DNA of 64,000 nt from Thauera sp. 28. GTDB taxonomy: Bacteria > Pseudomonadota > Gammaproteobacteria > Burkholderiales > Rhodocyclaceae. Shown here one piece after another: positions 19,023-64,000 of the stretch. Made by a program: the position numbers and the translations under genes. How positions within the stretch are numbered: position 1 is the first letter of the stretch; each line of letters opens with the position of its first letter. The stretch is from NCBI RefSeq assembly GCF_000310145.2, contig NZ_AMXA01000008.1, positions 62,001 to 126,000 on the forward strand. The letters are read 5' to 3'. The notes beneath the pieces are model-generated. The model was not told the origin of the DNA, searched no databases, and saw nothing but the letters and a program-made list of their open reading frames with translations.

Positions 19023-19922
19023 TCAGTCCTCCACCAGTTGCCTGTGCACACAGACGGCCGAAGCGCGCGGACGTACGATACGTCCGCGCGCTTCGACATG
19101 CGCCCGTGTGAAAGCCGCTCCCAGCAACAGGATCAGCGCCGAATAGTTCACCCATAGTAGCAGCATCACCAAGGACCCCGCCGCACCATAGGTGGAGGCA
19201 GTCGCCGTCGTGGCCAGATACAGCGCGATCAGCGAACGCCCGACCGCAAACAGCAGCGCGGTTGCGAAAGCGCCGAGGAGCACGTCGCGCCACAACAGCA
19301 CGACGTCGGGCAAGACCCTGAAGATGGTGGCGAACAGCAAGGTGATGACCACCAGGGAGACGGCCCAGTCCATGCCCAGCACGAGCGCGGCAGGTACCGG
19401 CAGCCAGTCCTGTGCGAAAGCGATCAGCGCACGCACGAGGACGCTGGCCGTAAGCGACACGAGCAGCACGAAGCCGATGCCCAGCACCACGGCCAGCGAC
19501 AGCAGGCGTGTCTTGACGTAGATGAACACGCTGTTGCGTGTCGGCCTTGGCGCCACCCCCCAGATCGCATTGAGCGACGTCTGCATCTGCGAAAAAACCG
19601 TGGTCGCGCCAAAAAGGATGGCGGCAAAGCCGGCCACCGACGGCAGCAGGCCGCTCTGCTCGATACGGCTGTTGCTCACCGCCGACTGTATCGCCGAGGC
19701 GGCCTGGGCGCCGATGGCAGCCTCGAGTTGCGCCGCCACCTCACCTTGCGCTGCGCTCTCACCAAGCACCAGTCCGACAATGGTGACCGCGATGATCACC
19801 ACCGGCGCAATCGAGAACAGCGTGAAGAAGGCCAGCGCGGCGGCATGAACGAACACCTGTGCTTCAAGCCACAGTCGCACCGTACGGCGCATCACGCCGA
19901 TCCAGTATGCCAGGCCCGGCAT
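19023..19922 (-). CDS. YihY/UPF0761 family inner-membrane protein
   Basis: A 299-residue protein with about six membrane spans. It has the YihY-family features FVHAAALAFFTLFSIAPVV near the N-terminus, SLNAIWGV in the middle, and GSLVMLLLWVNYSALILLLGAAF. These proteins were once annotated as ribonuclease BN, but that activity belongs to RNase Z, and their true role is not settled. I chose the ATG at 19922, though a GTG lies one codon earlier. The last 25 residues are basic. A short frame upstream (19922-20029) ends in a TGATG overlap with this start. Confidence 0.85.
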   Translation of the reverse strand: MPGLAYWIGVMRRTVRLWLEAQVFVHAAALAFFTLFSIAPVVIIAVTIVGLVLGESAAQGEVAAQLEAAIGAQAASAIQSAVSNSRIEQSGLLPSVAGFAAILFGATTVFSQMQTSLNAIWGVAPRPTRNSVFIYVKTRLLSLAVVLGIGFVLLVSLTASVLVRALIAFAQDWLPVPAALVLGMDWAVSLVVITLLFATIFRVLPDVVLLWRDVLLGAFATALLFAVGRSLIALYLATTATASTYGAAGSLVMLLLWVNYSALILLLGAAFTRAHVEARGRIVRPRASAVCVHRQLVED

Positions 19923-20086
19923 CACCCCTTGCCTCCGCCCGCAAGGAGAACGAGACTCAAGGTATCGAAGATCGGGCCAGCGCCGAAGCGGGCGAGACGC
20001 AGCATGGAAGGATGGGCATGAATGTTCATGCGCGAAAGATAACCGATGACGCGGCGCCGGGGCACCATGCAGCCGGCCGCCCTGTC

Positions 20087-20092
20087 TATAAT
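20087..20092 (+). promoter_or_regulatory. Candidate -10 for the response regulator operon
   Basis: A perfect TATAAT about 70 bp before the first ATG of the four-gene signalling operon. No convincing -35 is visible 16-18 bp upstream. Confidence 0.4.
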
Positions 20093-20164
20093 CGCCTGCA
20101 TCACGCCCACGTCATGCACCGCGAGGACCGTGTGGAGACCGCACAAGAGGGGAGACAGCAAACG

Positions 20165-20590
20165 ATGACTTCGGAATTTCCGCCCATCCTGCTCGTGGAG
20201 GACAGCCCGATCGATGTCGACCTGACGTTGCGGGCGTTCGCTCGGCGCAAGCTCGCCAATACCGTGCTTGTCGCCCGCGACGGCGAGGAAGCGCTCGAAT
20301 GGATCCCGCGCTGGCTGGCAGGCGAGCAGAAGCCGGCAGTGATCCTGCTCGATCTCAACATGCCGCGCGTGGATGGCCTTACCGTGCTCAAGGAGATCAA
20401 GGCGCATTCGGCGCTGCAGCGTATCCCGGTCGTCATCCTCACCACCTCGCGCGAGGACCGCGACCTCACCGCCGCCTACGCACTGGGCGCCAACTCCTAC
20501 ATCGTCAAGCCGGTCGATTTCGGCAACTTCATGGAGGTTGCGCAGCAGATCGAGCTGTACTGGTGCGTCCTCAACGAACGACCAAAGTGA
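20165..20590 (+). CDS. Single-domain response regulator (Rcp1-like)
   Basis: A 141-residue protein that is only a receiver domain. Visible are the acidic pair VEDS near 11-14, the phospho-acceptor Asp63 in LLDLNMP, a Thr in ILTTS, and the Lys in VKPVD. Its length and the DGEEALEWI segment resemble regulators paired with phytochrome-type or PAS-type kinases. No DNA-binding or enzyme domain is present, so it must act on a protein partner. It is the first gene of an operon whose last gene is a histidine kinase, the likely phosphodonor. The start is chosen by an AGGGGAG site. Confidence 0.87.
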   Translation: MTSEFPPILLVEDSPIDVDLTLRAFARRKLANTVLVARDGEEALEWIPRWLAGEQKPAVILLDLNMPRVDGLTVLKEIKAHSALQRIPVVILTTSREDRDLTAAYALGANSYIVKPVDFGNFMEVAQQIELYWCVLNERPK

Positions 20591-20595
20591 TCGAC

Positions 20596-23500
20596 ATGCG
20601 GGTGCTCTACATCGAGGACTCCAGCGCGGATGCCGACCTGGCCCGCCGCGTGCTCGCACGCTCGGCGCCCCAGGTCGAACTGACCCACGCCGACACATTG
20701 GCACGCGGGTTCGAATACCTGGCCGAATCGGAGCCGTTCGACCTCGTCCTCTGCGACCTCGCCCTCCCCGACGGCTCCGGCCTGGAAGTGCTTTCACACG
20801 TGCGTGAGAACGGCTTGCCGATCGCGGTCGTCATGCTGACCGGCTCGGGTGATCAGGATTCGGCGGTTGCCGCCCTCAAGGCGGGTGCCGACGACTACCT
20901 CGTCAAACGCAACGACTATCTCGACCACCTTGCTGACAGCATCGATACGGCCCTCGCCCGTCGCCGCGGCGCGGCGGACTGGCAAGGGCGCGGGCTACGC
21001 GTGCTCTATGTCGAACACAACGGCTTCGATGCCGACCTGCTCGCCCGCCATCTTGCCGAGCACGCACCCCACATCCGGCTGACGGTATCGAGCACGGCGG
21101 ACGAAGCCCTCGATCTGCTGCCGGCGGGGCCGGACGAATCCACGGCGTTCGACGTCATCCTTACCGACTACCGGCTACCGGGCATGGACGGGCTCGAGCT
21201 CGTACGCACCCTGCGCAGAGTCCGGCGGCTCGACCTCCCGATCGTGCTCATAACCGGCCAGGGCAGTGAAGACCTCGCTGCCAAAGCCCTCGGCATGGGC
21301 ATAGACGACTACCTCGCCAAGCATGAAGGCTACCTGTTCGAGGTGGCGGCCATCCTTGAGAAGGTGCAGCGCCAGGCCGAACTCAAGCGCGAGCGCGAAA
21401 CCCTGCGCGCAACCAGCGATCGCCTCAGCCGGTTGATCGATGCCAGCCCGACGATCCTCTACAGTCTGTCGCTTGACGCCGGCATTCCGCGTGCGACCTG
21501 GGTCAGCGAGAACATCACCCGCCACTTGGGTTATACCGTCAGCGAGGCGCTGCAGCCCGGATGGTGGGCGAGCAAGCTGCATGCAGACGACCGCGCTGCC
21601 GCAATTGCCCGCTCGGCCTCACTGTCCGCCATCGAGAGCCTGGTGCACGAGTACCGGTTCGCCGACGCCCACGGCCAGACACGCTGGATCCGCGACCAGT
21701 TGCGGCTCGTACGTGCGGCCGACGGTCAGCCGCAGGAGGCTGTCGGCGTCTGGCTGGACGTAACCACCGAAAAACGCGACGAGGTCCTGCAACGCGCACG
21801 CGTCGCCGTGCTCGACGAGGTCCTCTCCGGGCGCGCACTCGCGGACATCCTCGCCGACCTGGCTCGCCGCCTCGAAGAGCTCGACCAGGACATGCTGGTG
21901 TCGATCCTGCTGATCGACACCGACGGCAAGCTCCACACCGCCGCAGCGCCCTCGCTGCCGGCAGACTACAACGCAGCAGTCGATGGCCTGACGCCTGGCG
22001 AAGGCCACGGCTCCTGCGGCACCGCGGCCTGGCTGGGCAAGCCGGTGATCGTCAGCGAGATAGAGCACCACCCTTACTGGCAGCCCTATCTCGCAATTGC
22101 ACGCAAGGCGGGCCTGGCCGCCTGCTGGTCGATACCGCTCAAGGACGACACCGGCAGGGTGATCGGCACCTTCGGCATCTACCACCGCAGGCCGCGCGCG
22201 CCGGGGGCTGCCGAACTCGCGCTGATGGAAGAGTTCGGCCGTCTGACGTCGCTGGCGATCATCAAGGTCAGGGACCGCGAGGCGCTCAAGCAGGCTGCTG
22301 CGGTTTTTTCTGCCACCCGCGACGGCGTTTTCATCACCGACCTGCAACCCCGCATCGTCGCAGTCAACCGCGCATTCTCGGAGATCACCGGTTACGCAGA
22401 GACAGAGGCCCTGGGCCGCAACCCATCGATGCTGCAGTCCGGGCGCCACGAGCGCAGCTTTTTCCAGTCCTTGTGGAAGACGCCCGGCGAAACCGGCCAC
22501 TGGCACGGCGAGGTCTGGAACCGGCGCAAGAGTGGCGAAATCTACCCGCAGTGGCTGTCGATCAGCACCGTCAAGGACGACAAGGGCGAGCCGCATCGTT
22601 ACGTGGGCGTGTTCACCGACATCGGCGAGCTGAAATCCTTCGAAGCGCGGCTCGAGCATCTCGCACACCATGACCCCCTTACCGACCTGCCCAACCGGCT
22701 GCTGATGCAGTCACGGCTGCAGAACGCCATCGATCGTGCCGAACGACACGGCAACAAGGTCGCCGTGCTCTACCTCGACCTTGACCGTTTCAAGACCGTC
22801 AATGACAGCCTCGGCCACCCGGTCGGTGACGAACTGCTGGTGCAGTTGACCCAACGCCTGTCGAGCCGGCTGCGCGACGAAGACACCCTTGCACGCCTCG
22901 GTGGCGACGAATTCCTGCTCCTGGTCGAATCCGTGACCCAGCCCGGCCACGCAGTCGCCGTTGCGCAATCGCTCATCGAACTGCTCCACACCCCCTTCGC
23001 ACTGCCATCGGGCCATGAGGTGTTCATCGGCCTTAGCATCGGCATCAGCCTTTACCCGGACGACGCCCTGACCGCAACCGAGCTCGTCCAGCATGCGGAT
23101 GCGGCGATGTATCTGGCCAAGCAGCAGGGGCGCAACACCTACCGCTTCCACACCCACGCACTGACCCGCGCTGCGGCCGAACGCCTGTCGCTCGAAACAC
23201 GGCTGCGCCATGGGCTGGACCGCGGCGAGTTCCTGCTCCACTACCAACCGCTCGTCGACGCGACGACAGGCAAGGCGCTGGGCGTCGAGGCACTGGTACG
23301 CTGGCAGCCCCCGGGGGAGGATCTGGTGCCCCCAGGGCGCTTCATCCCGCTTACCGAAGAGACCGGCCTCATCGTTCGACTCGGTGCCTTCGTGTTGCGG
23401 GCGGCCTGCGTGCAGGCCCAGGCGTGGCGTGAGCAGGGCCTGGCGCTCGGCACGGTGGCGGTGAACCTATCCGCTCGCCAGTTCATGGACGACGGCCTGG

Positions 23501-23952
23501 TCGAGGAAGTGAAGACTGCACTGGCGATCTCCGGCCTGCCCCCGCACTGCCTCGAACTCGAACTCACCGAGAGCCTGCTCATGGAGCAAGCCCCGCGCAC
23601 GATTGCAACGCTCAGCGCACTGAAACAGTTGGGCTTGCGCCTGGCGATCGATGACTTCGGCACCGGCTATTCATCGCTCGCCTATATCAAGCGCTTTTCC
23701 ATCGACAAACTGAAGATCGATCAGAGCTTCGTCCGCAGCCTCGAACGCTCGGCCGACGACAAGGCCATCGTCGCCACCATCGTCGCCATGGCACGTACGC
23801 TACGCCTGGAGGTACTGGCCGAGGGCGTGGAGACGGACGCACAAGCGAGCATCCTCGCCTCGCTCGGCTGCGTCGAACATCAAGGCTACCTCTACGCACG
23901 CCCGCTACCGCCAGCCGAACTCGAGACATGGCTGCGGAGCCATGGCCGATGA
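20596..23952 (+). CDS. REC-REC-PAS-GAF-PAS-GGDEF-EAL c-di-GMP protein
   Basis: A 1118-residue soluble protein. Two receiver domains come first (about 1-120 and 135-255), with acceptor Asp residues in LCDLALP and LTDYRLPGMDG. PAS (about 275-395), GAF (405-560), PAS (565-680), GGDEF (690-850) and EAL (860-1115) follow. The cyclase site is an intact GGDEF near 768 with an RDED inhibitory-site motif five residues upstream. The phosphodiesterase keeps EALVRW, DDFGTGY and AEGVE. Both enzyme activities are thus possible. The ATG at 20596 is six bases after the upstream regulator's stop. A GTG at 20587 would overlap it. The receivers suggest phospho-control by the kinase encoded two genes downstream. 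Confidence 0.9.
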   Translation: MRVLYIEDSSADADLARRVLARSAPQVELTHADTLARGFEYLAESEPFDLVLCDLALPDGSGLEVLSHVRENGLPIAVVMLTGSGDQDSAVAALKAGADDYLVKRNDYLDHLADSIDTALARRRGAADWQGRGLRVLYVEHNGFDADLLARHLAEHAPHIRLTVSSTADEALDLLPAGPDESTAFDVILTDYRLPGMDGLELVRTLRRVRRLDLPIVLITGQGSEDLAAKALGMGIDDYLAKHEGYLFEVAAILEKVQRQAELKRERETLRATSDRLSRLIDASPTILYSLSLDAGIPRATWVSENITRHLGYTVSEALQPGWWASKLHADDRAAAIARSASLSAIESLVHEYRFADAHGQTRWIRDQLRLVRAADGQPQEAVGVWLDVTTEKRDEVLQRARVAVLDEVLSGRALADILADLARRLEELDQDMLVSILLIDTDGKLHTAAAPSLPADYNAAVDGLTPGEGHGSCGTAAWLGKPVIVSEIEHHPYWQPYLAIARKAGLAACWSIPLKDDTGRVIGTFGIYHRRPRAPGAAELALMEEFGRLTSLAIIKVRDREALKQAAAVFSATRDGVFITDLQPRIVAVNRAFSEITGYAETEALGRNPSMLQSGRHERSFFQSLWKTPGETGHWHGEVWNRRKSGEIYPQWLSISTVKDDKGEPHRYVGVFTDIGELKSFEARLEHLAHHDPLTDLPNRLLMQSRLQNAIDRAERHGNKVAVLYLDLDRFKTVNDSLGHPVGDELLVQLTQRLSSRLRDEDTLARLGGDEFLLLVESVTQPGHAVAVAQSLIELLHTPFALPSGHEVFIGLSIGISLYPDDALTATELVQHADAAMYLAKQQGRNTYRFHTHALTRAAAERLSLETRLRHGLDRGEFLLHYQPLVDATTGKALGVEALVRWQPPGEDLVPPGRFIPLTEETGLIVRLGAFVLRAACVQAQAWREQGLALGTVAVNLSARQFMDDGLVEEVKTALAISGLPPHCLELELTESLLMEQAPRTIATLSALKQLGLRLAIDDFGTGYSSLAYIKRFSIDKLKIDQSFVRSLERSADDKAIVATIVAMARTLRLEVLAEGVETDAQASILASLGCVEHQGYLYARPLPPAELETWLRSHGR

Positions 23953-24881
23953 CCACACGCCTGCTGCTTGCCCTGCTCGTCTCCGTGCTCGCCCTGGCGT
24001 GCGCGAAAGTACCCGAGCCGCCCCTCCGCGTGGCCGTCAATCCCTGGGTCGGCTACGACCCACTGGTGCTCGCCCGCGAGCGCGGGCTGATCGATCCGGC
24101 CACGCTTCAGGTCATCGAACTGCCATCGGCAACCGAATGCAAGCGCGCCCTGCGCAACGGGCTCGCCGACGCCGCCGCACTGACCCTGGACGAAGCACTG
24201 CGCCTGGCCGACGAAGGCACGGAACTTCGTATCGTCACCCTGCTGAGCGACTCCAGGGGCGCCGACGCCGTGCTCGCACGCCCCGGCATCTCGAGCCTGG
24301 CGGAACTCCGCGGCAAACGTATCGCCCTCGAAGAAAGCGCGCTTGGCAGCCTGATGCTGGCACGCTTGCTGACCGCTGCGGGTCTCACGCGAGATGACGT
24401 TCACACCGTGCACGGCGAAGCCTCGCAACACGCCGCCATGGTGCAGGACGGCGGGGCAGACGTGGTCATCACCTTCGAACCCATCAGGAGCCAATTGCTT
24501 GCCGCAGGCTTGAGGGTGATCTTCGACAGCGCCGAGCTGCCGGGAGAAATCGTGGACGTGCTCGTCGTCCGCGCAGACCTCGTCGAACATCGCGTTCAGC
24601 AGCTACGGGCCGCCTGGCGGACCGGGCTGGCCGCTCTCGAGGCCGACCTGCCCGCAGCGGCCGCCCTACTCTCTCCCGCCGCGGACCTGACGGTCGAACA
24701 ATACCTCGCCACCTTGGACGGGCTCCGCTTCATTCCTGCCGCCGAGAGCGCTCAGCGACTGGACGCCGAAGCGCTCGCACTGTCTGCAGGCCCGCTTGCA
24801 GGCCATCTTCAAGGGCTTGGCCTGCTCCAGCGCCCGCCCGACTGGGTGGCCCTGACCACTGACACCGGAGCCGCACGGTGA
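23949..24881 (+). CDS. Periplasmic ligand-binding lipoprotein, NMT1/taurine-binding (TauA/SsuA) type
   Basis: A 310-residue protein with a lipoprotein signal (LALAC, acylated Cys near residue 18). It has the type 2 periplasmic-binding fold of nitrate/sulfonate/taurine-binding proteins: RVAVNPWVGYDPLVLARERG, then LADAAALTLDEALRLADEG, SLAELRGKRIALEESALGS and a GADVVITFEP. No permease or ATPase gene is adjacent. It instead overlaps by 4 bp both the c-di-GMP gene before it and the histidine kinase gene after it. It probably presents a small ligand to the kinase rather than serving uptake. The ligand cannot be read from the sequence. Confidence 0.85.
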   Translation: MTTRLLLALLVSVLALACAKVPEPPLRVAVNPWVGYDPLVLARERGLIDPATLQVIELPSATECKRALRNGLADAAALTLDEALRLADEGTELRIVTLLSDSRGADAVLARPGISSLAELRGKRIALEESALGSLMLARLLTAAGLTRDDVHTVHGEASQHAAMVQDGGADVVITFEPIRSQLLAAGLRVIFDSAELPGEIVDVLVVRADLVEHRVQQLRAAWRTGLAALEADLPAAAALLSPAADLTVEQYLATLDGLRFIPAAESAQRLDAEALALSAGPLAGHLQGLGLLQRPPDWVALTTDTGAAR

Positions 24882-27175
24882 GGATCGGCAACCCCCTGCT
24901 CGCATTCCCCGCCCGACTGGTTCTGCCTATCGTGCTGTCCCTGCTTGCCGTCATCGCGCTGGGCATACTCTATTGGGTGCAGATGGGCGTCCTGGAAAGA
25001 GAGGTCGAGCACGCCGAGCGCCTGCGCCTTGCCGAACGCCTGACCCTGGAACAGACCAGGCTGGAGAGCCAGTCCGAACATGGAACGCCGCTGCAGATCC
25101 GCCGACTCGTGAGCAGCCTTGCACTGCACCGTGGTCTGAGCCACGCCTGGCTGGTCGACGCCAACGGACAGATTCGCGCCAGCCTGAGCAGATCGGAGCT
25201 CGGGCAGCCGATGCTCGCGCATCTGCCTCTGCTGGCACCTGAAACGCGTCTTGCCGTCGCCAAGGCGCTTGCACGACGTACCCCCCAGGCCAGCATCCAG
25301 CGCCTGGAAGCCGAACAAGCCTTACTGGGCGTGGTCGCCGTCGGCCCGAGCGACACCCTCATCGTGCGCGTGGACCTTGCGCAGCCACTGGCAAGCCGTC
25401 TCGAAGCGAGCCGCCTCGATTTCATCGCCGGTGCGGCGGCATGGCTCGCCTTCGCCCTGCTCGCCGGCCTGATCACCCATCTGCTCTGGTTCCGTCGTGC
25501 CGCCCTCCTCACCCGCACCGCAGCCACGCTTGCCACCGGCGACCTCTCAGCGCGCACCCGCCTGCAGGGCGCAGACGAACTCGCGAACGTCGGTGCTGCG
25601 CTCGACGCCATGGCCGAACGGCTCGAGGCTCAGCACCTCCAGTTGCACCGCCTCGGCACGATCATCGACCACTCCCCGGTCATTGCCATCTCATGGGCAA
25701 ATGCGCCGGGCTGGCCCGCCACCTTCGTGAGCAGCAACATTCGGCGCTGGGGCTACAAGCCTGAAGACTTCACCGCCGGCACACTGCACTACAGCACACT
25801 GATTCACGCCGACGATCTACCCAGGATCACTGACGACGTCGCCAGCCACTTCGCACACGGCCCGGACGCCTATACCCAGAATTACCGGCTGCGCATGGCC
25901 AACGGCCAGTGGATACACATCGAGGACCACACCTGGCTTACCCGCGACGCCAACGGCGAAGTCGTCCGCATCCAGGGCATGTTGCTCGACGTCAGCGCAC
26001 GCGCAGCGCTTGCCGAGGCCCTGCATGACAACGAACAGCGCCTGCGCCTGGCCCTCGCGGCTGCCAACCAGGGGCTGTACGACCTCGATCTGCGTACGGG
26101 CCACGCCCAGGTAAGCCCGGAGTACGCCACGATGATGGGCTACGATCCGGCTACCTTCGTCGAGACCAACGCCGCCTGGCGGGCGCGGCTCCACCCGGAC
26201 GATGCGGAAAGGGTGTTCAGGACTTTCGAGGACTACGTCGCCGGTCGCCTGCCCGAGTACCGCGTCGAGTTCCGCCAGCGCACCCGTGACGGACGCTGGA
26301 AGTGGATCCTCTCGCTGGGCCGTATCGAGCAATGGTCGGCCGACGGTACGCCGCTGCGCCTGCTGGGCACCCATACCGACATCGATGCAATCAAGGCGGC
26401 GGAGGCTGCACTGCGCGAAGCCAATGCCTCGCTCGAAGCCCGTGTCGCCGAACGTACGGCCGAACTGCAGGCACTCAACCAGTCGCTCGAGAGCTTCGTC
26501 TATTCGGTTTCGCACGACCTGAAGGCGCCCCTTCGCGGCGTGGAGGGCTACAGCAGACTGCTCGAAGAAGACTACGCCGCGCGCCTCGATGACGAGGGGC
26601 GACTCTTCATCACCAACATCCGCAGCGGCGTGACCCGTATGGGCGAGCTCATCGACGACCTGCTCGAGTACTCGCGCATGGAGCGCCGCAGCTTGAACCT
26701 CGGTACGCTCGATCCAGCGGAGCTCGTGCGCCAACTGCTCGCGGCACGCCGGGACGAATTCGACACGAAGGGCATCCATGTGCACACCGCAATGCCCGCG
26801 CTCGAGGTCATCGCAGACCCCAACGGTCTGGGCATGGCGCTGCGCAACCTGCTGGAGAACGCCGTCAAGTTCAGCCGCAACGTGCCCGAACCGCGCATCG
26901 ACATCGGTGCCCGGAGCGAAGACGGCATGGCCGTCATGTGGGTGCGCGACAACGGTATCGGCTTCGACATGAAGTACCACGACCGCATCTTCGAAATCTT
27001 CCAGCGCCTGCACCGCGTCGAAGACTATCCCGGCACCGGCATCGGCCTCGCCCTGGTACGCAAGGCCATGCAACGCATGAACGGCCGCGCCTGGGCCGAC
27101 AGCAGCCCGGGCGCAGGCGCCACGTTCTACCTCGCGCTTCCTCTTGCCCCGACGCCGACAAGCGCCGAGGCCTGA
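24878..27175 (+). CDS. Membrane sensor histidine kinase (HAMP-PAS-PAS)
   Basis: A 765-residue kinase. Spans at about 12-34 and 186-208 enclose a 150-residue periplasmic sensor. A HAMP linker (about 210-262) and two PAS/PAC domains (265-380, 385-515) follow. A HisKA region with His546 in VSHDLKAPLRG comes next, then an ATPase domain (LLENAVKFS, VRDNGIGFD, GTGIGLALVRKA). The H-box and ATPase resemble phytochrome-type kinases, matching the Rcp1-like regulator at the head of the operon. The start codon is GTG, overlapping the preceding stop (GTGA). The lipoprotein upstream is its likely periplasmic partner (inferred). Confidence 0.9.
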   Translation: MRIGNPLLAFPARLVLPIVLSLLAVIALGILYWVQMGVLEREVEHAERLRLAERLTLEQTRLESQSEHGTPLQIRRLVSSLALHRGLSHAWLVDANGQIRASLSRSELGQPMLAHLPLLAPETRLAVAKALARRTPQASIQRLEAEQALLGVVAVGPSDTLIVRVDLAQPLASRLEASRLDFIAGAAAWLAFALLAGLITHLLWFRRAALLTRTAATLATGDLSARTRLQGADELANVGAALDAMAERLEAQHLQLHRLGTIIDHSPVIAISWANAPGWPATFVSSNIRRWGYKPEDFTAGTLHYSTLIHADDLPRITDDVASHFAHGPDAYTQNYRLRMANGQWIHIEDHTWLTRDANGEVVRIQGMLLDVSARAALAEALHDNEQRLRLALAAANQGLYDLDLRTGHAQVSPEYATMMGYDPATFVETNAAWRARLHPDDAERVFRTFEDYVAGRLPEYRVEFRQRTRDGRWKWILSLGRIEQWSADGTPLRLLGTHTDIDAIKAAEAALREANASLEARVAERTAELQALNQSLESFVYSVSHDLKAPLRGVEGYSRLLEEDYAARLDDEGRLFITNIRSGVTRMGELIDDLLEYSRMERRSLNLGTLDPAELVRQLLAARRDEFDTKGIHVHTAMPALEVIADPNGLGMALRNLLENAVKFSRNVPEPRIDIGARSEDGMAVMWVRDNGIGFDMKYHDRIFEIFQRLHRVEDYPGTGIGLALVRKAMQRMNGRAWADSSPGAGATFYLALPLAPTPTSAEA

Positions 27176-27197: not shown

Positions 27198-28763
<1,566 letters not shown>

Positions 28764-41565: not shown

Positions 41566-41724
41566 CTCGATTTCCGCGAGGGACTCAGGAAAGGGCCCGG
41601 GCATGCATGCACTGCGGGGGCGGAACCGCCGGGCGCCCGGATCAAGCCCGCGAGTTTAACGCATCCACCGCTCAATCAGGCGCGGGCGTGCACGATGCCT
41701 CAACAAGCGCAGATCACTGCCCTT

Positions 41725-41730
41725 TATACT
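41725..41730 (+). promoter_or_regulatory. Candidate -10 just before the MASE1 gene
   Basis: TATACT ends seven bases before the ATG at 41738. A transcript starting there would have almost no leader. No ribosome site or convincing -35 is visible. Confidence 0.3.
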
Positions 41731-41737
41731 GCGCGCG

Positions 41738-44700
41738 ATGAAACCGGCCCCGGCGCTGCCCTATCTCCTCTCTGTCGTCATCCTTGCGCTGGCATACGCG
41801 GTGGCGGGCTGGCTCAGCCTGAACATGGCGATCCCGCCCGGATACGCCGTGCCCGTGTTCCCGGCCGCTGGCATTGCAATGGCTGCACTGCACATCTACG
41901 GCAGGCGTCTGTGGCCCGGCGTACTGCTCGGTTCGCTCGCGGTGCAGGCTCTGGCAGGCGCTGCTGTCGGTGCCACCAGCCCCCTTGTCTCAGTGCTTGC
42001 GCTCGCGCCCGTCGCCGCGGCATTGCAGGCGGTACTGGGCGCCTGCCTCATCGACCGATTCATTGGCCGCAAGAGTGCCTTCGACGACACCGCGAGCATT
42101 CTGCGCCTGCTCGCCCTGATCGCCCCCGCGAGCTGTCTCGTCTCGGCAACCGTCAGCACGCCACTGCTGGTGCAGGAAGGCCTGATCGCCCGCGAGGACC
42201 TGTTCTTCAACTGGTGGAACTGGTGGCTCGGCGACACGCTCGGCGTGATCATCGCCACCCCCTTGATGCTGGTGCTGTTCGGTCGCCCGGCGGCGGACTG
42301 GCGCAGCAGGCGCAATGCAGTGGCCGTTCCGCTGCTCGTTGCCCTGGCGATGCTGAGTATCGCCTTCAAGCAGGTCATCTCATGGGAGGAGAACCGCATC
42401 CACGCGCAATTCGAGCGCGACGCGCACCTCCTTGCCACCCAGGTCCAGCGCAGGTTCGACGCCCAGATCGACATGATGCTGTCGATCAGCGGCCTGATCA
42501 GCAACAGCGATCAGATCACCCGCGATGAATTCAAGGCCTTCGTCAGCCCCTGGCTGCACCGCTACCCCGGCACCCAGAACTTTGCCTGGAACCCGCTCGT
42601 ACGCAACGACGAGCGCGAAGCGTTCGAGGCCGTCATGCGGGAGGACACCCCCGGCTACCGCATCCTCGACCGTGACTTCCAGGGCCAGACCTTTCCAGCC
42701 GCTCAAGCCGCGCGCTACTACCCGATCGCCTTCGTCGAGCCCAGGGCGACGAACCTTAGCGTGATCGGCATGAACCCCTACGCGCTACCCGCAGCGGCAG
42801 TGGCCATCGAGACAAGTCAGCGCAGCGGTCGCCCGGTGGCGAGCGACCCCTTCCGTCTGGTACAGGAGCGTGACGACCAGCGCGGCATGGTCGTCTATCT
42901 CGCCACACTGGCACCAGGCTGGAACAAGGCCGCTGCGCGCACCGGCGAACGACGCAGCGGGATCGTGTCGGCAGCCTTTCGCATGGACGACGCGATTGCG
43001 AGCGCACTCGACCCCAGACTGGCTGCGCTCATCGAACTGTGCCTGATCGACCGCTCGGGTGGCGCCCCGGGTACACGCCTGAGCGGAACGCCCGGCTGCG
43101 AAGGTCCGGGCTGGCTGGAGCGTAAAGTGCGGCATGCCCACGCGTTCGAGTTCGGCGAGCGTCCGCTCGAAGTCCTGTTGAGGGCAACACCCGCCTATCT
43201 GCTCAGCCTGCGCAGTTGGGCCGCATTGGGCACCGTCGTCGTCGCCCTGCTTGCCACCGCCCTGCTCGGCGCCTTCCTGCTGATAAGCTCCGGCAACACG
43301 CGCCGCATTGCCGCGCTGGTCGAACGCCGCACGCAGGAACTCGAAGCCACCCATGCCGACCTCCACGACAAGCAGGCTGCACTCAACGAAGCCATGCGAA
43401 TCGCACAGATGGGTAGCTGGGAGAGCTTCGACGGTCTGCGCGGCCTGCGCTGCTCGCATGGGCTGCACGGCCTGCTCGGCCGCCAGCAGGCCGAGCTGAG
43501 CTCGATCGACGACATCGTCGCCAGCTTCCGTGAGGACGACCAGAGCGCGCTGCGCGAAATCATCGACGAGCTTACGCAGGCTGCGGGCCTGCGCACCATC
43601 GACTGCCGTACGCTGAGCGAACCGCCACGCGTACTCCACCTGCAGATCGAGAGCGAATGGTCGGAGCATGGCCTGGGACGCCTGCGCGGCATCCTGCAGG
43701 ACGTTACCCGAGCCCGAGAATCAGAGGCGCACATCCACTACCTGGCGCGCTTCGACACCCTGACCGGACTGCCGAACCGCAGCGCATGGCTCGAACACGG
43801 TGCGGTCGCGCTGCGCAGCGCGACCCGTCACCACGACCGTTTCGCCGTGCTCTTCCTCGACCTGGACAACTTCAAGACCATCAACGACTCACTCGGCCAC
43901 GCCATGGGTGATCGACTGCTGGAAACAGTCGCACACCGCCTGAGCGCATGCGTACGCGCCGAGGATCAACTCGCGCGTCTGGGCGGCGACGAGTTCGTGG
44001 CCCTGCTGCCACGCATCGCCGGACCGACCGATGCTGCCGCCGTCGCACGCAAGATGCTCGACGTCCTTGCCGCAACGATCGAGCTTGATGGTCATGAGCT
44101 TCGCCCCTCGGTCAGTATCGGGATCGCCCTCTTTCCCGAGGACGGTGACACCGTCGAGATCCTGCTCAAGCACGCCGACACGGCGATGTACGGCGCAAAG
44201 GCCGCTGGTCGCAACAACTTCCAGTTCTTCACCGCGGACATGAACGTACGCGCCACCGAGCGCCTCCTGCTCGAGAACGCGCTGCGCCGCGCAATTGCCA
44301 CAGACCAGCTCAGCTTGCACTACCAGCCCCAGATCGATACGCGCAGCGGACGCACCATGGGTTGCGAAGCGCTCGTGCGCTGGAACGACCCTGCCCAGGG
44401 GCCGATATCTCCTGCCCGCTTCATCCCTGTTGCGGAAGACTCCGGCCTGATCATTCAACTCGGTGACTGGGTCTTGCGCGAGGCATGTCGGCAACAGGTA
44501 CGCTGGTCGCAGGCCGGGCTGGGCGAGGTCTGTATTGCCGTCAACATCTCGGCCCTGCAGTTCCGGCGTGCCGAATTCGTCGATAGTGTGATCGCCATCC
44601 TGCAGGAAACGGGCGCTTCGCCGAGCGCGATCGAGCTCGAGATCACCGAAAGCGCGCTGATGCAGCCGGGTGAGCAGCTGCTGGAGCGCCTGCACCAACT

Positions 44701-45034
44701 CGTCGGCCACGGCCTCAGCCTGGCCCTTGACGATTTCGGTACCGGTTACTCTTCCCTCGCCTACCTGAAACGCCTCCCCATCGCCCGCCTGAAGGTCGAC
44801 CAGAGCTTCGTCGCCGACCTGCCGGGCGACCCGGAGGACGCTGCCGTCGTCACCGCCACCTTGTCGATGGCGCGCGACCTGGGTCTCGAGGTCGTCGCCG
44901 AGGGAGTTGAAACCCAGCAGCAGCGCGCCTTCCTGTGCGAACGACAGTGCACACTGATGCAGGGCTACCTGTTCTCGCGCCCCCTGGCGGCAGACGACTT
45001 TGCCGGCTGGCTGAAGGCGCACCCGCCGGCCTGA
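41738..45034 (+). CDS. MASE1-CHASE-PAS-GGDEF-EAL membrane c-di-GMP protein
   Basis: A 1098-residue membrane protein. An N-terminal MASE1 sensor with about eight spans (1-205) includes PPGYAVPVFPAAGIAMA and WWLGDTLGVIIATPLML. It is followed by a periplasmic CHASE domain (about 240-430), another span near 490-510, a helical linker and a PAS-like region. A GGDEF domain (site near 749, RAED inhibitory motif) and an EAL domain (CEALVRW near 876, DDFGTGY, AEGVE, QGY) complete it. Both active sites look intact. CHASE domains sense small extracellular molecules, but the ligand is unknown. It is convergent with clpB (6-bp gap) and divergent from ppiD. Confidence 0.9.
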   Translation: MKPAPALPYLLSVVILALAYAVAGWLSLNMAIPPGYAVPVFPAAGIAMAALHIYGRRLWPGVLLGSLAVQALAGAAVGATSPLVSVLALAPVAAALQAVLGACLIDRFIGRKSAFDDTASILRLLALIAPASCLVSATVSTPLLVQEGLIAREDLFFNWWNWWLGDTLGVIIATPLMLVLFGRPAADWRSRRNAVAVPLLVALAMLSIAFKQVISWEENRIHAQFERDAHLLATQVQRRFDAQIDMMLSISGLISNSDQITRDEFKAFVSPWLHRYPGTQNFAWNPLVRNDEREAFEAVMREDTPGYRILDRDFQGQTFPAAQAARYYPIAFVEPRATNLSVIGMNPYALPAAAVAIETSQRSGRPVASDPFRLVQERDDQRGMVVYLATLAPGWNKAAARTGERRSGIVSAAFRMDDAIASALDPRLAALIELCLIDRSGGAPGTRLSGTPGCEGPGWLERKVRHAHAFEFGERPLEVLLRATPAYLLSLRSWAALGTVVVALLATALLGAFLLISSGNTRRIAALVERRTQELEATHADLHDKQAALNEAMRIAQMGSWESFDGLRGLRCSHGLHGLLGRQQAELSSIDDIVASFREDDQSALREIIDELTQAAGLRTIDCRTLSEPPRVLHLQIESEWSEHGLGRLRGILQDVTRARESEAHIHYLARFDTLTGLPNRSAWLEHGAVALRSATRHHDRFAVLFLDLDNFKTINDSLGHAMGDRLLETVAHRLSACVRAEDQLARLGGDEFVALLPRIAGPTDAAAVARKMLDVLAATIELDGHELRPSVSIGIALFPEDGDTVEILLKHADTAMYGAKAAGRNNFQFFTADMNVRATERLLLENALRRAIATDQLSLHYQPQIDTRSGRTMGCEALVRWNDPAQGPISPARFIPVAEDSGLIIQLGDWVLREACRQQVRWSQAGLGEVCIAVNISALQFRRAEFVDSVIAILQETGASPSAIELEITESALMQPGEQLLERLHQLVGHGLSLALDDFGTGYSSLAYLKRLPIARLKVDQSFVADLPGDPEDAAVVTATLSMARDLGLEVVAEGVETQQQRAFLCERQCTLMQGYLFSRPLAADDFAGWLKAHPPA

Positions 45035-52038: not shown

Positions 52039-52407
52039 TCAGCCCTCCAGCAGGCTGCGTACCTTTTCCACCAGCTCCTTGGTGGAAAAGGGCTTGGTCA
52101 TGTAGGCGTCTGCCCCCAGGGCGAGGCCCTTGGCAACTTCGGTGTCGCGCCCCTTCGCGGTCAGCATCAGGATGCGCACCGACGCCAGCGCCGGATCAGC
52201 CTTGATTTCCTGGCAAACCTCGAAACCACTCTTCTTGGGCATCATCACATCGAGCAGGACCAGATCAGGCTGGTCGGCACGGATGCGCTGCACGGCTTCC
52301 TCACCGTCATTGGCGATCGCCACCTCGAAGCCTTCGCGCTTCATGAGGAACTCGAGCGAAATGACGATGTTCTGCTCATCGTCGGCAATCAATATTCTCT
52401 TGTTCAT
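52039..52407 (-). CDS. CheY-like single-domain response regulator
   Basis: A 122-residue receiver domain: acidic pair ADDE at 8-11, phospho-acceptor Asp53 in LLDVMMP, Thr in LTAKG, and Lys in TKPFS. There is no output domain. The gene has a strong GGAGGAG site. It sits between the symporter-kinase fusion, its probable phosphodonor, and the pseudo-kinase/exonuclease, a possible target. Confidence 0.9.
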   Translation of the reverse strand: MNKRILIADDEQNIVISLEFLMKREGFEVAIANDGEEAVQRIRADQPDLVLLDVMMPKKSGFEVCQEIKADPALASVRILMLTAKGRDTEVAKGLALGADAYMTKPFSTKELVEKVRSLLEG

Positions 52408-52425
52408 TCAGACTCCTCCCCGCCA

Positions 52426-55182
<2,757 letters not shown>

Positions 55183-55195
55183 CGCGCCCTCCCCA

Positions 55196-55393
55196 TCAGC
55201 GCGCGCCCCGCTCGACGATCCAGGCCACCGCGACGATCAGCGCAAGCCATGTGCCGAACAGGTAGACGTGCAGCAACGGCAGTCCGAACAGGCTCAACTG
55301 CCGGTCGAACAAGGACAGGATCGGATAATTGAGCAACAGCATGCCGGCGATGAACACGGCCACCAGGCGCTGCCCGGCCAGTCCCTTGCGCAT
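55196..55393 (-). CDS. Small two-span membrane protein upstream of the symporter-kinase
   Basis: A 65-residue protein with two hydrophobic segments (about 9-27 and 38-58) joined by a short loop (SLFDRQLSLFGLPL). Size and position recall the small accessory subunits (DUF485/DUF4212-like) encoded beside SSS symporters, but I could not assign the family. The second of two adjacent ATGs is chosen, five bases after GGAGG. The stop is 13 bp before the symporter-kinase gene, so they are co-transcribed. Confidence 0.7.
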   Translation of the reverse strand: MRKGLAGQRLVAVFIAGMLLLNYPILSLFDRQLSLFGLPLLHVYLFGTWLALIVAVAWIVERGAR

Positions 55394-59549: not shown

Positions 59550-62500
59550 CTACGCGAGCAGCCTGTTTATCTGTCCGAGCATCACGTCCAGGCGCCTGCG
59601 CACCGCGCCAAGCCCCTCGACGACGGCCGCTGCATCGGCCGCCCGGTAGTGTGCCGCAAGCGTCTCGATGGTCTCATGGAGCAAGTCGTGCGCCTGCGCC
59701 AGCTCGCGCAGCACGACCTCTTCATGACGCTGCTCGGCAAGCGCGAGCTCGATCCAGCGCCCGAGACTGCAGCCATGAACCACAAGCCGGTTGTCGATCT
59801 GCGTGCCATCGGCAATCTTGGCGGCAAGCGCGCGTACCAAGGCGCGGTGCTCGACCTGCGCATACACCAAGGCAAGCTCCTCGCGTGACAGCGCTGACTG
59901 TCGTCGCCAGCTCGCCGGCGGCGCCCATATGGCAACCCACTGCGGCAGGGACTCACCCTCCATCGGCCGTGCAATGACATAGCCCTGCCCGACCTCGCAC
60001 CCGAGCTGGAGCAGCACCCTGCCATGGGCCTCCGACTCCACGCCCTCGGCCACCACCTCCCGGCGGAAGGCGTGTGCAAGCCCCATAACCGCTTCGAGAA
60101 TTGCAAGATCCTCAGGGTCGTCGAGCATCTCGCGCACGAACAGCTGGTCGATCTTGAGACGTGCGGCGGGCAGGCGCTTGAGGTAGGCCAGCCCCGAATA
60201 GCCGGTCCCGAAGTCATCAAGCGCGAAACTGACGCCGATGCGCGCACAAGCCTCCACGATCTGCGTCACCCGCGTCATGCTCTCGAGCGCGCTGCTCTCG
60301 AGCACCTCGAGTTCGAGACTGCCCGGTGCCAAGCCCGGATGACCGGTCAAGGCCTCCTGAAGGCGCATCATGAAATCCGGGGCCTGAAGGTGGCGCGCCG
60401 AGATATTGACGCTCACCGGCACCGTCAGCCCCAAGCTCTTCCAGCGCTCGAGCTGCTCGAGCGCTGCCGAGATCACCCAATCACCCAATGCCACGGCCAC
60501 CGGCTGGTCCTCGACCATAGGCAGGAAGGCCGCCGGCTCGATCAGGCCCAGCTCGGGATGCTGCCAGCGGATGAGCGCCTCGACGCCAGTGAGCGCCCCG
60601 CTGCGCATATTGACCTTGGGCTGGTAGAACAGGACGAACTCGTCATTGGCAAGCGCTTCGTGGATCCGCGCCACGCCCTCGTGCCGCCCGCGCACATCGC
60701 GGTCCTGGTCGGTGTCGAAGAAATGATAGCGATTCTTGCCCGCAAGCTTGGCCTGGTACATGGCCAGATCGGCCTGGCGCAGCAGTTGGTCGGGCTCCAG
60801 CGCCTCCTCCTGAGGGTAGAGCGTCAGCCCGATGCTGGCCGAAACCTGGAGCTCCGCGCCACCCACCTGCACCACCTGGGCGACCGCCTGAAGCAGGCGC
60901 TGGACGAGGTGCTTGCAGGCAGGCAAGTCCGGCAGATCCACCAGCACCGCGACGAACTCGTCGCCACCGAGCCGCGACACGCTGTCAGCGTCGCGCAAGG
61001 TGCCCTTCATGCGCGCGGCCACCGTCGTCAACAACTGGTCGCCGACGTGGTGCCCATGGCCGTCGTTGACCTCCTTGAAGCCGTCCAGATCGATGTAGGC
61101 CACCGCCAGCAACTGGCCCCGTCGCCGCGCCTGCGCCATGCTGCGACTCAGGCGGTCATGGAGCAGCACGCGATTGGGCAGGCCGGTCAGCGCATCATAG
61201 TGGGCAACGTACTTCAGTTGCGCCTCGTGTTCTTTCTGGATGGTGATGTCGTTGAGCGTCCCGGAGATCCCCTGCACCTCCCGCCCGGCACCGAATACCG
61301 GGCGGGCATGGAGCTCGACCCAACGAAACCCTCCGCCGACCCGCAGGTAACGCAGTGCCTGCGTGCACGAGGCTTCCTCGCGCCGCAAGAGCAACTCGAA
61401 CACCTCCTGATGGAGATGGCGGTCATCCGGGTGCACATAATCGACGAACGGCCTGCCGATGCTCGCCTCGACCGCGAAACCGGTCAGCTCATGCCAGGCC
61501 CTGTTCAGGAACGCGCAGCGCCCATCTGCATCCACCTGAAAGATGACCTCGCGCACGCTCTCGACCACGGAGCGGTAACGCGCCTCGCTCTCGCGCAGGC
61601 TCTCGTCAACCCGCTTGCGCTCGATCACACCGGCCAGGGCATTGCCGACCAGGCTCATCAAGGTCTTTTCCTCGCCCGACCATTGCCGGCGGCAGCGTAC
61701 CGAATCGAGGCCTACGAAACCCAGCAGCCGGCCGTTAACCACCATTGGCGCCGCCAGCGTTGACTGGATGCCCTGCGACTGGAGCAGCTCACGATCCTGA
61801 CGCGCACACTCCGGCAACAGGGAAACATCGGGGAAATCCACGATCTCGAGACGCTTGATGATCTGGCAGAACAGCGAGCCCTCGAAGCCCACGCCCTGCA
61901 GGTTGTGCGCTTGTGGCGAGACGCCCGGCGCACACCATTCGTGCGTGTTGCTGACGCTGCGACCGTCCTCGGTGATATCGAACACGAATGCGCGGTCGGC
62001 ATCCGCATAGCGTCCGATCTGCGCCAGGGCACGCAGAACAAGGCCATCGACCTCGTCCGCCCGCGCGGGCATCAATTCCGATGAGATACGCGCCACCATC
62101 CGGCCGAAGGCGATACGACGCGTCAGTGCAGCCTCGCCACGCTCGCGGATCAGCTCCGCACTGACCGGACCGTCGAAGATCTCAAGCAGCTCGCGCACAC
62201 CCTGCTGGTCATCCAGCGGCCGTCTCGACATTCCGACCATCAAACCCAGTGCCTGCCCCTCCTTGTCGGCGAGCGGCACACCGCAATAGGCCTCATAAGC
62301 ACCGTCCCGCAAGCCGGGATCATCGGGAAAACGCGCCGCAACACCGCTGCCGATGACCACGCTCCCGCCCTGAAGCGCCAGCTCCGACGGTGTTCCAGCC
62401 AGCACGTAGCTGAACGGCTGAACTGCCGCGCCGTCCTTCCAGCCGGCACGCACATTGATACGGCCGCCCTCTTCCAGGCATTGCCCAACGAACACCAGAT

Positions 62501-63647
62501 CAAGATGCAGGGCCTCGCCCACATGGCGACATACGGCCTCGTAGAACGCATCTCCCGAGAGCATGGTGTAGCGTGCGGCCAGCGCATCCAGGGCCAGACC
62601 AGCACGCTTGCGGTCGGTGACATCCAGGCAATAGCCGATGTAGCCGAGAAAGCGCCCACTGCTGTCGTAGCGCGGACTGCCTTCGTCCGATACCCAGCGA
62701 TAGCCGCCATCTACATGACGCAAGCGATACTCCAGCCTAAACGGCTCCTGCGCCGCGAACGCACGTTCGTAATCCGACAGGCATTGCGCCCGGTCGTCGG
62801 GATGAACACCCTCGGCCCAGCCCTCGCCCAACTCCTGCTCGAGACTGCGGCCGGTGAATCGCAACCAGGGCTCGTTGAAATAGCTGCAGCGCCCGTCGGC
62901 ACCCGACGTCCAGATCAGGGCCGAACCGCTGTTGGCAAGGTTGCGGAAGTGTGTCTCGCTCTCGAGCAAGGCCTGTTCGGCCGCATTGCGCTCCTGCTCG
63001 AGCCGCAAGGCCACGATCATGCTGGTGCACGTCGCCAGCATCGGTGCAAGATCGTCCACGAGCACCCGATCGTAGCCCCCGGGGGCATTGGCCAGGCCAA
63101 CAATGCCGACCAGCTGCGCGCCCTGGATGAGCGGCAGGCCAAGAAAACCCCTGAGCGGCGGATGGCCTTGCGGAAGACCGCAACTGCGCGTATCCGTGGC
63201 GGGAGCATTCGAGATCACCGGCGCCGCCGTGCGCAGGACAGCGCCGTAAAGGCTGTTCAGCTCGCGAAACTCGAAACCACCGGCGCGCGCACGTTCATAC
63301 AGTGTTCGGGTGTGGGCATCCCAAGCCACATCGGTAAGCCCATGCATGCGCACGAAGGGCTCGCCCAACTCGTCGTGCAGGACCTCACCGATGAACCCGT
63401 ATTCGCTGTCGCTAAGCCCGATCAACTCGTGAAGTATGCGCTCGAAGACCTCGTGCGCAGCACCATCGACGAGAAAATCGCGTTGCACGGCGACGAGGGC
63501 GGACAGCATTCTCGCCTGCCGGCGGGCACGGCGACCAATCTGTTCGGCATACGAAGACATCTCGCTCGTGCCTGCGGCGGGCAAGATCAACGCAGGCCCC
63601 GCATCTACGGACGCACTCTGGGCTGAAGGAAGGGGGCGCCGGGGCAT
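59550..63647 (-). CDS. GAF/PAS-GGDEF-EAL protein with C-terminal CZB zinc-binding domain
   Basis: A soluble protein of about 1365 residues. Its order is GAF (about 50-240), PAS (255-375), GAF (390-540), GAF (550-715), PAS (725-845), GGDEF (855-1010, site near 892 with an RDAD inhibitory motif), EAL (1020-1235; VEALIRW, DDFGTGY, AEGVE) and a C-terminal CZB domain (about 1250-1335). The CZB signature VEHRAL...HGCSLGRW...HDLLHET supplies three His and one Cys for zinc, as in the zinc-controlled cyclase DgcZ. Both catalytic sites look intact. The start is uncertain: ATG at 63647 or at 63560 (MSSYAEQIG), neither with a good ribosome site. Confidence 0.87.
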   Translation of the reverse strand: MPRRPLPSAQSASVDAGPALILPAAGTSEMSSYAEQIGRRARRQARMLSALVAVQRDFLVDGAAHEVFERILHELIGLSDSEYGFIGEVLHDELGEPFVRMHGLTDVAWDAHTRTLYERARAGGFEFRELNSLYGAVLRTAAPVISNAPATDTRSCGLPQGHPPLRGFLGLPLIQGAQLVGIVGLANAPGGYDRVLVDDLAPMLATCTSMIVALRLEQERNAAEQALLESETHFRNLANSGSALIWTSGADGRCSYFNEPWLRFTGRSLEQELGEGWAEGVHPDDRAQCLSDYERAFAAQEPFRLEYRLRHVDGGYRWVSDEGSPRYDSSGRFLGYIGYCLDVTDRKRAGLALDALAARYTMLSGDAFYEAVCRHVGEALHLDLVFVGQCLEEGGRINVRAGWKDGAAVQPFSYVLAGTPSELALQGGSVVIGSGVAARFPDDPGLRDGAYEAYCGVPLADKEGQALGLMVGMSRRPLDDQQGVRELLEIFDGPVSAELIRERGEAALTRRIAFGRMVARISSELMPARADEVDGLVLRALAQIGRYADADRAFVFDITEDGRSVSNTHEWCAPGVSPQAHNLQGVGFEGSLFCQIIKRLEIVDFPDVSLLPECARQDRELLQSQGIQSTLAAPMVVNGRLLGFVGLDSVRCRRQWSGEEKTLMSLVGNALAGVIERKRVDESLRESEARYRSVVESVREVIFQVDADGRCAFLNRAWHELTGFAVEASIGRPFVDYVHPDDRHLHQEVFELLLRREEASCTQALRYLRVGGGFRWVELHARPVFGAGREVQGISGTLNDITIQKEHEAQLKYVAHYDALTGLPNRVLLHDRLSRSMAQARRRGQLLAVAYIDLDGFKEVNDGHGHHVGDQLLTTVAARMKGTLRDADSVSRLGGDEFVAVLVDLPDLPACKHLVQRLLQAVAQVVQVGGAELQVSASIGLTLYPQEEALEPDQLLRQADLAMYQAKLAGKNRYHFFDTDQDRDVRGRHEGVARIHEALANDEFVLFYQPKVNMRSGALTGVEALIRWQHPELGLIEPAAFLPMVEDQPVAVALGDWVISAALEQLERWKSLGLTVPVSVNISARHLQAPDFMMRLQEALTGHPGLAPGSLELEVLESSALESMTRVTQIVEACARIGVSFALDDFGTGYSGLAYLKRLPAARLKIDQLFVREMLDDPEDLAILEAVMGLAHAFRREVVAEGVESEAHGRVLLQLGCEVGQGYVIARPMEGESLPQWVAIWAPPASWRRQSALSREELALVYAQVEHRALVRALAAKIADGTQIDNRLVVHGCSLGRWIELALAEQRHEEVVLRELAQAHDLLHETIETLAAHYRAADAAAVVEGLGAVRRRLDVMLGQINRLLA

Positions 63648-63732
63648 AGGTATGACGAACTCGATGGCAGACGCATTAGCGCATGATAACGCCGCCAGGG
63701 GAACCCAAGAAGCCGCAGCGCGGCCCGAATGC

Positions 63733-63768
63733 AAAAAGGGGCGGCAGTCCAGATGACCGCCACCCCTT
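63733..63768 (-). terminator. Rho-independent terminator of ppsA
   Basis: On the minus strand a GC-rich stem (GGGGTGGCGG with CCGCCCC, one bulge) is followed by TTTTTT, 22 bp after the ppsA stop. It separates ppsA from the downstream c-di-GMP gene. Confidence 0.75.
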
Positions 63769-63789
63769 ACTGGCACTGCCCGCGCGGGC

Positions 63790-64000
63790 TTATTTCGCCA
63801 GATGCTCGGAGAGCTTGAGCCAGGTGTCCACCACCGTGTCCGGGTTGAGCGAAATGGTCTGGATCCCCTCGTCCATCAGCCACTCGGCCAGATCCGGATG
63901 GTCCGACGGCCCCTGGCCGCAGATACCGACATACTTGCCCAGCTTGTTCGCTGCGCGGATCGACATCGACAACAACTGCTTGACGGCCGGGTCACGCTCG
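63790..64000 (-). CDS. ppsA: Phosphoenolpyruvate synthase, C-terminal fragment
   Basis: The last 69 codons or so of a gene running off the right edge. The segments SMSIRAANKLGKYVGICGQGPSD (split by the window-typical GICGQGPSDHP motif) and LMDEGIQTISLNPDTV match the C-terminal PEP/pyruvate-binding domain of PEP synthase, with the catalytic Cys in GICGQGPS. The enzyme makes PEP from pyruvate and ATP for gluconeogenesis, which fits growth on acetate beside acs. The 5' part is outside the window. Confidence 0.92.
   Translation of the reverse strand, partial: ERDPAVKQLLSMSIRAANKLGKYVGICGQGPSDHPDLAEWLMDEGIQTISLNPDTVVDTWLKLSEHLAK

Follow-up and report, generated by a model that had tools for sequence, protein, structure and literature searches.

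We analysed a four-gene operon in a 64,000-nucleotide stretch of the genome of Thauera sp. 28 (contig NZ_AMXA01000008.1, positions 62,001 to 126,000 of the forward strand; this whole stretch is called the window), in which the gene of a lipid-anchored substrate-binding protein (SBP) stands between those of a cyclic diguanylate (c-di-GMP) enzyme and a membrane histidine kinase (HK). All four genes lie on the + strand. The first (20165–20590) encodes a response regulator consisting of a single Rcp1-like receiver domain (REC), the second (20596–23952) an enzyme of architecture REC-REC-PAS-GAF-PAS-GGDEF-EAL, the third (23949–24881) an NMT1-type SBP of 310 amino acids (aa), and the fourth (24878–27175) the kinase, of architecture TM-Cache-TM-HAMP-PAS-PAS-HisKA(H546)-HATPase (TM, transmembrane segment). 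The response regulator and enzyme genes are separated by 5 bp (20591–20595); enzyme and SBP genes overlap by 4 bp (ATGA), as do SBP and kinase genes (GTGA), the start codon of the kinase being GTG. These coordinates, junctions and Pfam domains confirm the arrangement given in a preliminary description of this DNA. Its remark that the lipoprotein has no permease or ATPase beside it also holds: hidden Markov models (HMMs) built from transporters of this SBP family found no ATP-binding cassette (ABC) ATPase or permease in the 64-kb window. The unit is flanked by a divergent open reading frame (ORF) at 19023–19925 (−) and a convergent one at 27198–28763 (−), the latter of which we take from its sequence to be GMP-synthase-like. 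A scan of 19900–20250 for sigma-70 promoter and terminator consensus sequences found nothing, and an Rfam scan of the window gave no match.

The SBP belongs to the NMT1 type, with scores above the Pfam cut-offs for NMT1_2 (57.8 bits, cut-off 24.7; 1.9e-15) and NMT1 (41.7 bits, cut-off 20.5; 1.6e-10) and an SBP fold in its AlphaFold2 model (confidence score, pLDDT, 95.6). It also matches Phosphonate-bd and related models and no SBP_bac family. The nearest structures are SsuA and TauA, with PqqT further down. The codon of the lipobox cysteine, Cys18, lies at 24000–24002 (+). The lipobox of the window's SBP (LALA↓C) is non-canonical at −3, and the cysteine is present in 54 of the 55 receptor-linked SBPs described below.

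Pfam matches in the kinase (E up to 0.01) are HAMP, two PAS_3, HisKA and HATPase_c, and its hydrophobic segments span residues 5–40 and 180–205. Between these segments lies a periplasmic single-Cache-like domain (approximately 24998–25414, +), followed by the HAMP domain (25505–25630, +; Pfam) and, at 26486–27148 (+), by the HisKA-HATPase core with its H-box histidine at 546. The nearest solved sequences of the core are the histidine kinase 8f71 and bacteriophytochromes. Phytochrome kinase-Rcp1 pairs resemble the operon in their receiver and kinase-core matches; unlike them, the window kinase has no photosensory PAS-GAF-PHY input among its Pfam matches at that threshold, and its input is an SBP plus a Cache domain. 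The input of about 260 residues gave a Cache-like AlphaFold2 model (pLDDT 93.6), which matched the integrative WalK-YycH model 9a5d best (Z 17.0 over 243 residues) and the WalK/YycG crystal structures at Z ~14; CitA and chemoreceptor Cache domains mostly scored Z 11–15, and ligand-bound Cache structures were among the neighbours. WalK is itself controlled by a partner protein, in the WalK-YycH/YycI system; that partner is not an SBP, and no c-di-GMP output of the system is known. Among members of the input family, Pfam recognizes sCache_3_2 weakly in 2 of 35, and the HAMP domain ends at residue 253–272 in 34 of 36 receptors measured, be they kinases or cyclases (exceptions L076 and L095). Identity to the window's input is 13–54%; only M1, E234 and M245 reach 90% conservation, and no column between the membrane segments does so.

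On the output side, the response regulator matches Response_reg alone in Pfam and has the acidic pair E12/D13, the acceptor D63, T94 and K115. Against solved structures the single receivers 5brj and 5ic5 score first, above RcpA, RcpB and Rcp1, and the bacteriophytochrome fusion entry 8avv is also matched; as a lone receiver with its acceptor residues, near Rcp1 among its solved relatives, it belongs to the Rcp1 type. Pfam finds two Response_reg domains, PAS_3, GAF_2, PAS_9, GGDEF (22663–23136, +) and EAL (23200–23904, +) in the enzyme, with the GGDEF motif at residue 769, RxxD at R760 and D763, and EAL at 898; it is a response regulator with both catalytic motifs intact, and its activities are predicted from them. 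Receiver a (20602–20916, +) is canonical (E7/D8, D54, T82, K104), so that full acceptor sites are found in the response regulator and in receiver a. Receiver b (approximately 21001–21345, +) keeps the acceptor D191, and its acidic pair is degenerate (E140-H141). In the homologous enzyme at L202 (6757–10167), Glu occupies the phosphoacceptor position of receiver b and the acidic pair reads A-H, possibly a fixed-on state. The same 64 kb also holds two further GGDEF-EAL frames and another kinase-receiver pair (41660–45031, +; 59553–63875, −; 52042–55236, −).

A search with the SBP matched 79 of 369 genomes of the class (E up to 1e-10), to which 12 loci of named contigs were added. After removal of three short fragments, 120 SBP rows were mapped by their neighbours (L132 gave no SBP row, and the surroundings of match G127:C43:45615 were only partly covered). 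Neighbour labels rest on longest-ORF choices and on HMMs whose seeds came from domains of the window and from one transporter; the label ABC denotes an ABC or permease match within two genes downstream or, for instance in L086, upstream. With these labels, 55 SBPs stand directly upstream of a receptor on the same strand (the overlap being exactly 4 bp in 29), 40 stand near ABC or permease genes, and 25 near neither. In a FastTree phylogeny of 115 rows, from which two more rows were left out, all 55 receptor-linked rows fall within one 59-row clade (support 95), a distribution on which we rejected chance adjacency of SBP and receptor. Of the conserved synteny that had been proposed as a check, the SBP-receptor pair is kept class-wide, with 55 rows in one clade, and the clade is present in 42 of the 369 genomes. 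As expected of SBP-gated receptors, the SBP gene adjoins that of a membrane receptor that has a periplasmic domain; relatives keep this pairing, and no transporter genes stand with the SBP. Two cleft residues, S102 and D106, are invariant in the receptor clade (55/55), and T79, E82, G104 and P178 occur in 54 of 55.

When TauA and SsuA served as the outgroup (IQ-TREE, quick mode), two clades were kept, that of the receptors with 58 rows (support 88) and that of the transporters with 43 (support 98; 38 ABC, 5 other, no receptor). Six long-branch rows had been dropped, leaving 54 receptor rows, and the tree was built without the other NMT1 families (nitrate, hydroxymethylpyrimidine) and without five rows of the own genome whose matches were short, weak or absent; a transporter family nearer than the guanidine-linked rows discussed below may exist. 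Within the window's order, the SBP matched 21 of 200 genomes at 1e-25, and 16 of the 19 new loci mapped have a receptor-like gene adjoining it; L169, L170 and L173 were placed by hand, the SBP ORF being masked by an over-long overlapping one, and L174 by its PAS domains alone. Outside the tree set, an SBP 36% identical to that of the window adjoins a PAS-EAL protein on a plasmid of the alphaproteobacterium Niveispirillum. At L073 (G262), the SBP is very similar to that of L075, and the receptor after it could be traced over its first 125 or so residues only. Two SBPs that do not belong to the receptor clade, those of L091 and L129, are followed by HAMP-kinase genes at distances of 390 and 755 bp, which may point to a second origin of such pairing.

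The receptors mostly share their input and exchange their outputs. Among the 55, 23 are kinases, 20 carry GGDEF-EAL and 10 GGDEF alone, and two are unclear (L014 lies at a contig end; no output domain was found in L056). At least 10 kinase/cyclase exchanges are required on the tree of receptor rows. A c-di-GMP response regulator adjoins 11 of the 23 kinase receptors: REC-REC-PAS-GAF-PAS-GGDEF-EAL in the window, L032, L033 and L043; REC-EAL in L052, L057 (as two ORFs), L083 and L084; and REC-HD in L035, L036 and L061. Counting an enzyme in or beside the receptor, 41 of 55 loci are linked to c-di-GMP. The whole four-part set occurs in six loci, namely the window, L032, L164 and L165, together with L033 and L043, which are ordered SBP-HK-REC-enzyme. 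In L164 (10912–13718) and L165 (10879–13712) the kinase is split into two genes overlapping by ATGA, one for a Cache-HAMP-PAS protein without kinase domain and the other for a PAS-HisKA-HATPase protein with hydrophobic N-terminal segments; their sequences indicate a natural separation of receptor from kinase.

The kinase, receiver and enzyme also form a kit that occurs on its own. We searched with the first 396 residues of the enzyme, which matched 16 of 300 genomes of the order at 1e-50 and 2 of 369 of the class at 1e-60 (the own genome in both), and mapped 14 loci, setting aside the three that carry the SBP (the window, G387 and G515). No SBP was found among the neighbours listed for these 14. 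In 10 of them kinase, receiver and REC-REC-...-GGDEF-EAL enzyme stand in a row (with another PAS/GAF set in L207, L208 and L210), and no match to the Cache-HAMP input was found in the kinases of those ten. Of the remainder, L205 runs into a contig end, the enzyme of L201 is shortened, and in L209 and L211 the enzyme has one receiver and the kinase is absent. Because the kit also runs without the SBP, the operon reads, from these sequence comparisons, as an SBP and Cache-HAMP input joined to an existing kinase-REC-enzyme kit. No named system with this layout had been known to the authors of the preliminary description; the whole set recurs in five further loci and in two gene orders, and its layout joins two recurrent modules.

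We consider it likely that the operon encodes an SBP-gated two-component system with a c-di-GMP output, in which the SBP docks on the Cache domain and phosphate passes to the response regulator and to receiver a. The mechanism is proposed by analogy with NspS-MbaA. The lipid-anchored SBP would close on a small periplasmic ligand; the closed form would dock on the Cache domain of the kinase; the Cache-HAMP unit would shift kinase activity; H546 would hand its phosphate on to the Rcp1-like receiver and receiver a; and the balance of the enzyme would move between making and breaking c-di-GMP. What is observed, by comparison, is the arrangement of genes and domains, the pairing throughout the clade, one input combined with changing outputs, and the kit in loci that have no SBP.

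Several points weigh against this scheme. Firstly, the evidence is all comparative. Secondly, S, A, T, E or G follows the lipobox Cys at +2 in 43 of 54 receptor-linked SBPs, and Asp does so in only 2 of 54; under the E. coli sorting rule most such residues direct a lipoprotein to the outer membrane, which would place most of these SBPs apart from their inner-membrane receptors. Thirdly, the preliminary description had phosphate reaching both receivers of the enzyme, and for receiver a, with its full acceptor site, this may hold; both Mg-site acidic residues are retained in receiver b in 0 of the 17 rows compared, window included, so that receiver b is probably not an ordinary phosphate acceptor. 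Fourthly, for 12 of the 23 kinase receptors the directly adjoining genes include no c-di-GMP response regulator, and four clade rows lack an intact receptor (none in L055 and L086, L034 at a contig end, only the first part in L073). Fifthly, the correlation between the identities of SBP and input, which in itself favours the scheme (r 0.70 across 43 pairs, permutation maximum 0.21; r 0.39 when combinations with SBP identity of 45% or more are omitted), is raised by shared ancestry alone. Lastly, a Cache domain can bind ligands by itself.

The last point leads to the best of the alternatives, namely that the Cache domain of the kinase senses the ligand directly and the SBP only delivers, buffers or titrates it. 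Cache domains commonly bind small ligands, the neighbours of our model include ligand-bound examples, and the kit occurs with kinases lacking both the Cache-HAMP input and the SBP. We nevertheless hold this unlikely: the SBP cleft is invariant at S102 and D106 in 55 of 55 while the input is poorly conserved (13–54%, no inter-membrane column at 90%), which argues that the conserved binding site is in the SBP. It is more improbable again that the SBP works with an ABC permease whose gene lies elsewhere, and that it shares no more than a transcript with the signalling genes. Its fold and family are those of ABC importers, and contig C13 of the own genome carries a related SBP together with an ABC gene, but that operon has its own SBP under a guanidine-I riboswitch, receptor pairing in 55 of 59 clade rows stands against ABC genes in 38 of 43 transporter-clade rows, and the window gave no ABC match. 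Least credible is a loose cluster in which kinase and Rcp1-like receiver form one pathway, other kinases drive the enzyme and the SBP is a leftover, since, even if the kit is found with other kinases and two clade SBPs stand without a receptor, the same genes occur together in two orders in six loci and 30 of 55 clade receptors carry c-di-GMP domains in the same chain.

As to the ligand of the SBP-gated system, we rejected a taurine or sulfonate type by simple homology: TauA and SsuA lie outside the group (support 99), lack T79, E/D82, S102 and G104, and have Glu at position 106. The preliminary label "nitrate/taurine type" was too broad, since these two proteins fall outside the group that joins receptor SBPs to guanidine-riboswitch-linked SBPs. 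Of the 48 class-set loci that do not belong to the receptor clade, 27 have a guanidine-I riboswitch within 500 nt upstream on the same strand (46 loci were scored together, and L091 and L097, checked separately, are without guanidine-I), with filters so strict that weak matches are lost. In a first Rfam scan of nine chosen transporter loci, eight had guanidine-I and the ninth guanidine-II only; among ten further loci, guanidine-I was found only in L110, guanidine-II in L098, L106 and L138, and neither in L108, L109, L112, L115, L117 and L133; another ten-locus scan found guanidine-I in 2 of 10. The guanidine transporter SBPs share with the receptor clade S102, G104, D106 and P178 (38/38), T79 (36/38), S194 and D203. 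They differ in having ABC genes, often with a riboswitch, and W36, D82 and N105 (38/38); the window, with no permease or ATPase genes and no guanidine riboswitch, falls outside their class. In a small lineage, L100 and L104, guanidine-I lies directly upstream of the SBP and no ABC match was found among the neighbours listed. These two SBPs, counted among the 27, have cleft residues common to most receptor SBPs (W33, G35, Y36, T79, D81, S102, G104, D106, E177, P178), and they join the receptor clade in trees without outgroup (support 97 and 98) and are unplaced with it.

Our leading, tentative candidate is a small nitrogenous cation of guanidinium type, since guanidine-I riboswitches precede many of the SBPs that stand nearest to the receptor clade without belonging to it; we think this candidate more likely wrong than right. 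More doubtful by a shade is the fuller proposal that the SBP may sense guanidine, or a closely similar guanidinium compound, outside the cell and derive from SBPs linked to guanidine riboswitches, with the 59-row clade as a class-wide receptor family whose kinase and cyclase outputs to c-di-GMP are exchangeable. Against this lead, the cleft of the transporter SBPs differs from that of the receptor clade at about nine positions (36, 37, 60, 61, 80, 81, 82, 105 and 177), and that of L100/L104 at 60, 80, 82, 128 and others; L091 and L097 carry part of the receptor-like signature (W33, G35, Y36, E177) without a riboswitch; no guanidine-I match lies beside a receptor operon, and an Rfam scan of nine receptor loci gave no match; and co-occurrence of guanidine-I and receptor is not significant (6 of 42 genomes, expected 3.3, p ~0.10).

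Two loci are of separate interest. At L102, on contig C13 of the own genome, guanidine-I precedes a related SBP, which is accompanied by an ABC gene and by an ORF of about 1252 aa that is carboxylase-like by size only, and guanidine-II is also present. At L104 (5775–8028), guanidine-I precedes an SBP without an ABC match beside it and then a fatty-acid-desaturase-family protein, possibly an undescribed guanidine pathway. Guanidine is a riboswitch ligand and nitrogen source (PMC7266159, PMC12508155, PMC11410670), guanidine-I is linked to nitrate/sulfate/bicarbonate-type transporters and carboxylases (PMC7266159), and a paper on methylguanidine use speculates on the SBP selectivity of such a transporter (PMC12508155).

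Both kinases and c-di-GMP enzymes gated by an SBP are kinds already known. In NspS-MbaA of Vibrio cholerae, with homologs in Sinorhizobium meliloti, a periplasmic binding protein likewise controls a membrane receptor with c-di-GMP enzyme domains (PMC8967002, PMC9993111), SBP occupancy setting cyclase or phosphodiesterase activity (PMC8967002). MbaA differs in having GGDEF-EAL in the receptor chain, whereas in this operon a kinase serves as the receptor and the enzyme is a response regulator of its own; the window's SBP, without an SBP_bac match, does not belong to that family. In SBP-activated sensor kinases, such as BctC-BctE and XylFII-LytS (PMC9602780) or TorT-TorS and LuxP-LuxQ, an SBP gene is likewise joined to that of a sensor kinase, and the SBP probably docks on the periplasmic domain. 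All four involve other SBP families, and none is known to be tied to a REC-REC-GGDEF-EAL enzyme. Adjacency alone is no proof of contact, because a study of P. aeruginosa SBPs encoded next to kinases reports titrations in which the AgtS sensor domain failed to bind the SBPs neighbouring it (PMC11113362).

A 2022 review of c-di-GMP sensing notes that the periplasmic-binding clan is prevalent in c-di-GMP proteins and that SBP_bac_3 alone among its 27 Pfam families had been investigated in that setting (PMC8846402). Judging by a partial literature search, the clade, the exchangeable outputs, the joining to the kit and the kinship with guanidine-riboswitch-linked SBPs are apparently undescribed, and no periplasmic guanidine receptor appeared in the titles and abstract openings covered; such a receptor would be new, if true. 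By its sequences, the SBP-receptor family appears to be widespread, and its relatives among the transporters are in many cases under the control of guanidine riboswitches. Its 55 SBP-receptor pairs, alike in input and varied in output, make ligand, docking and output separable for testing one by one.

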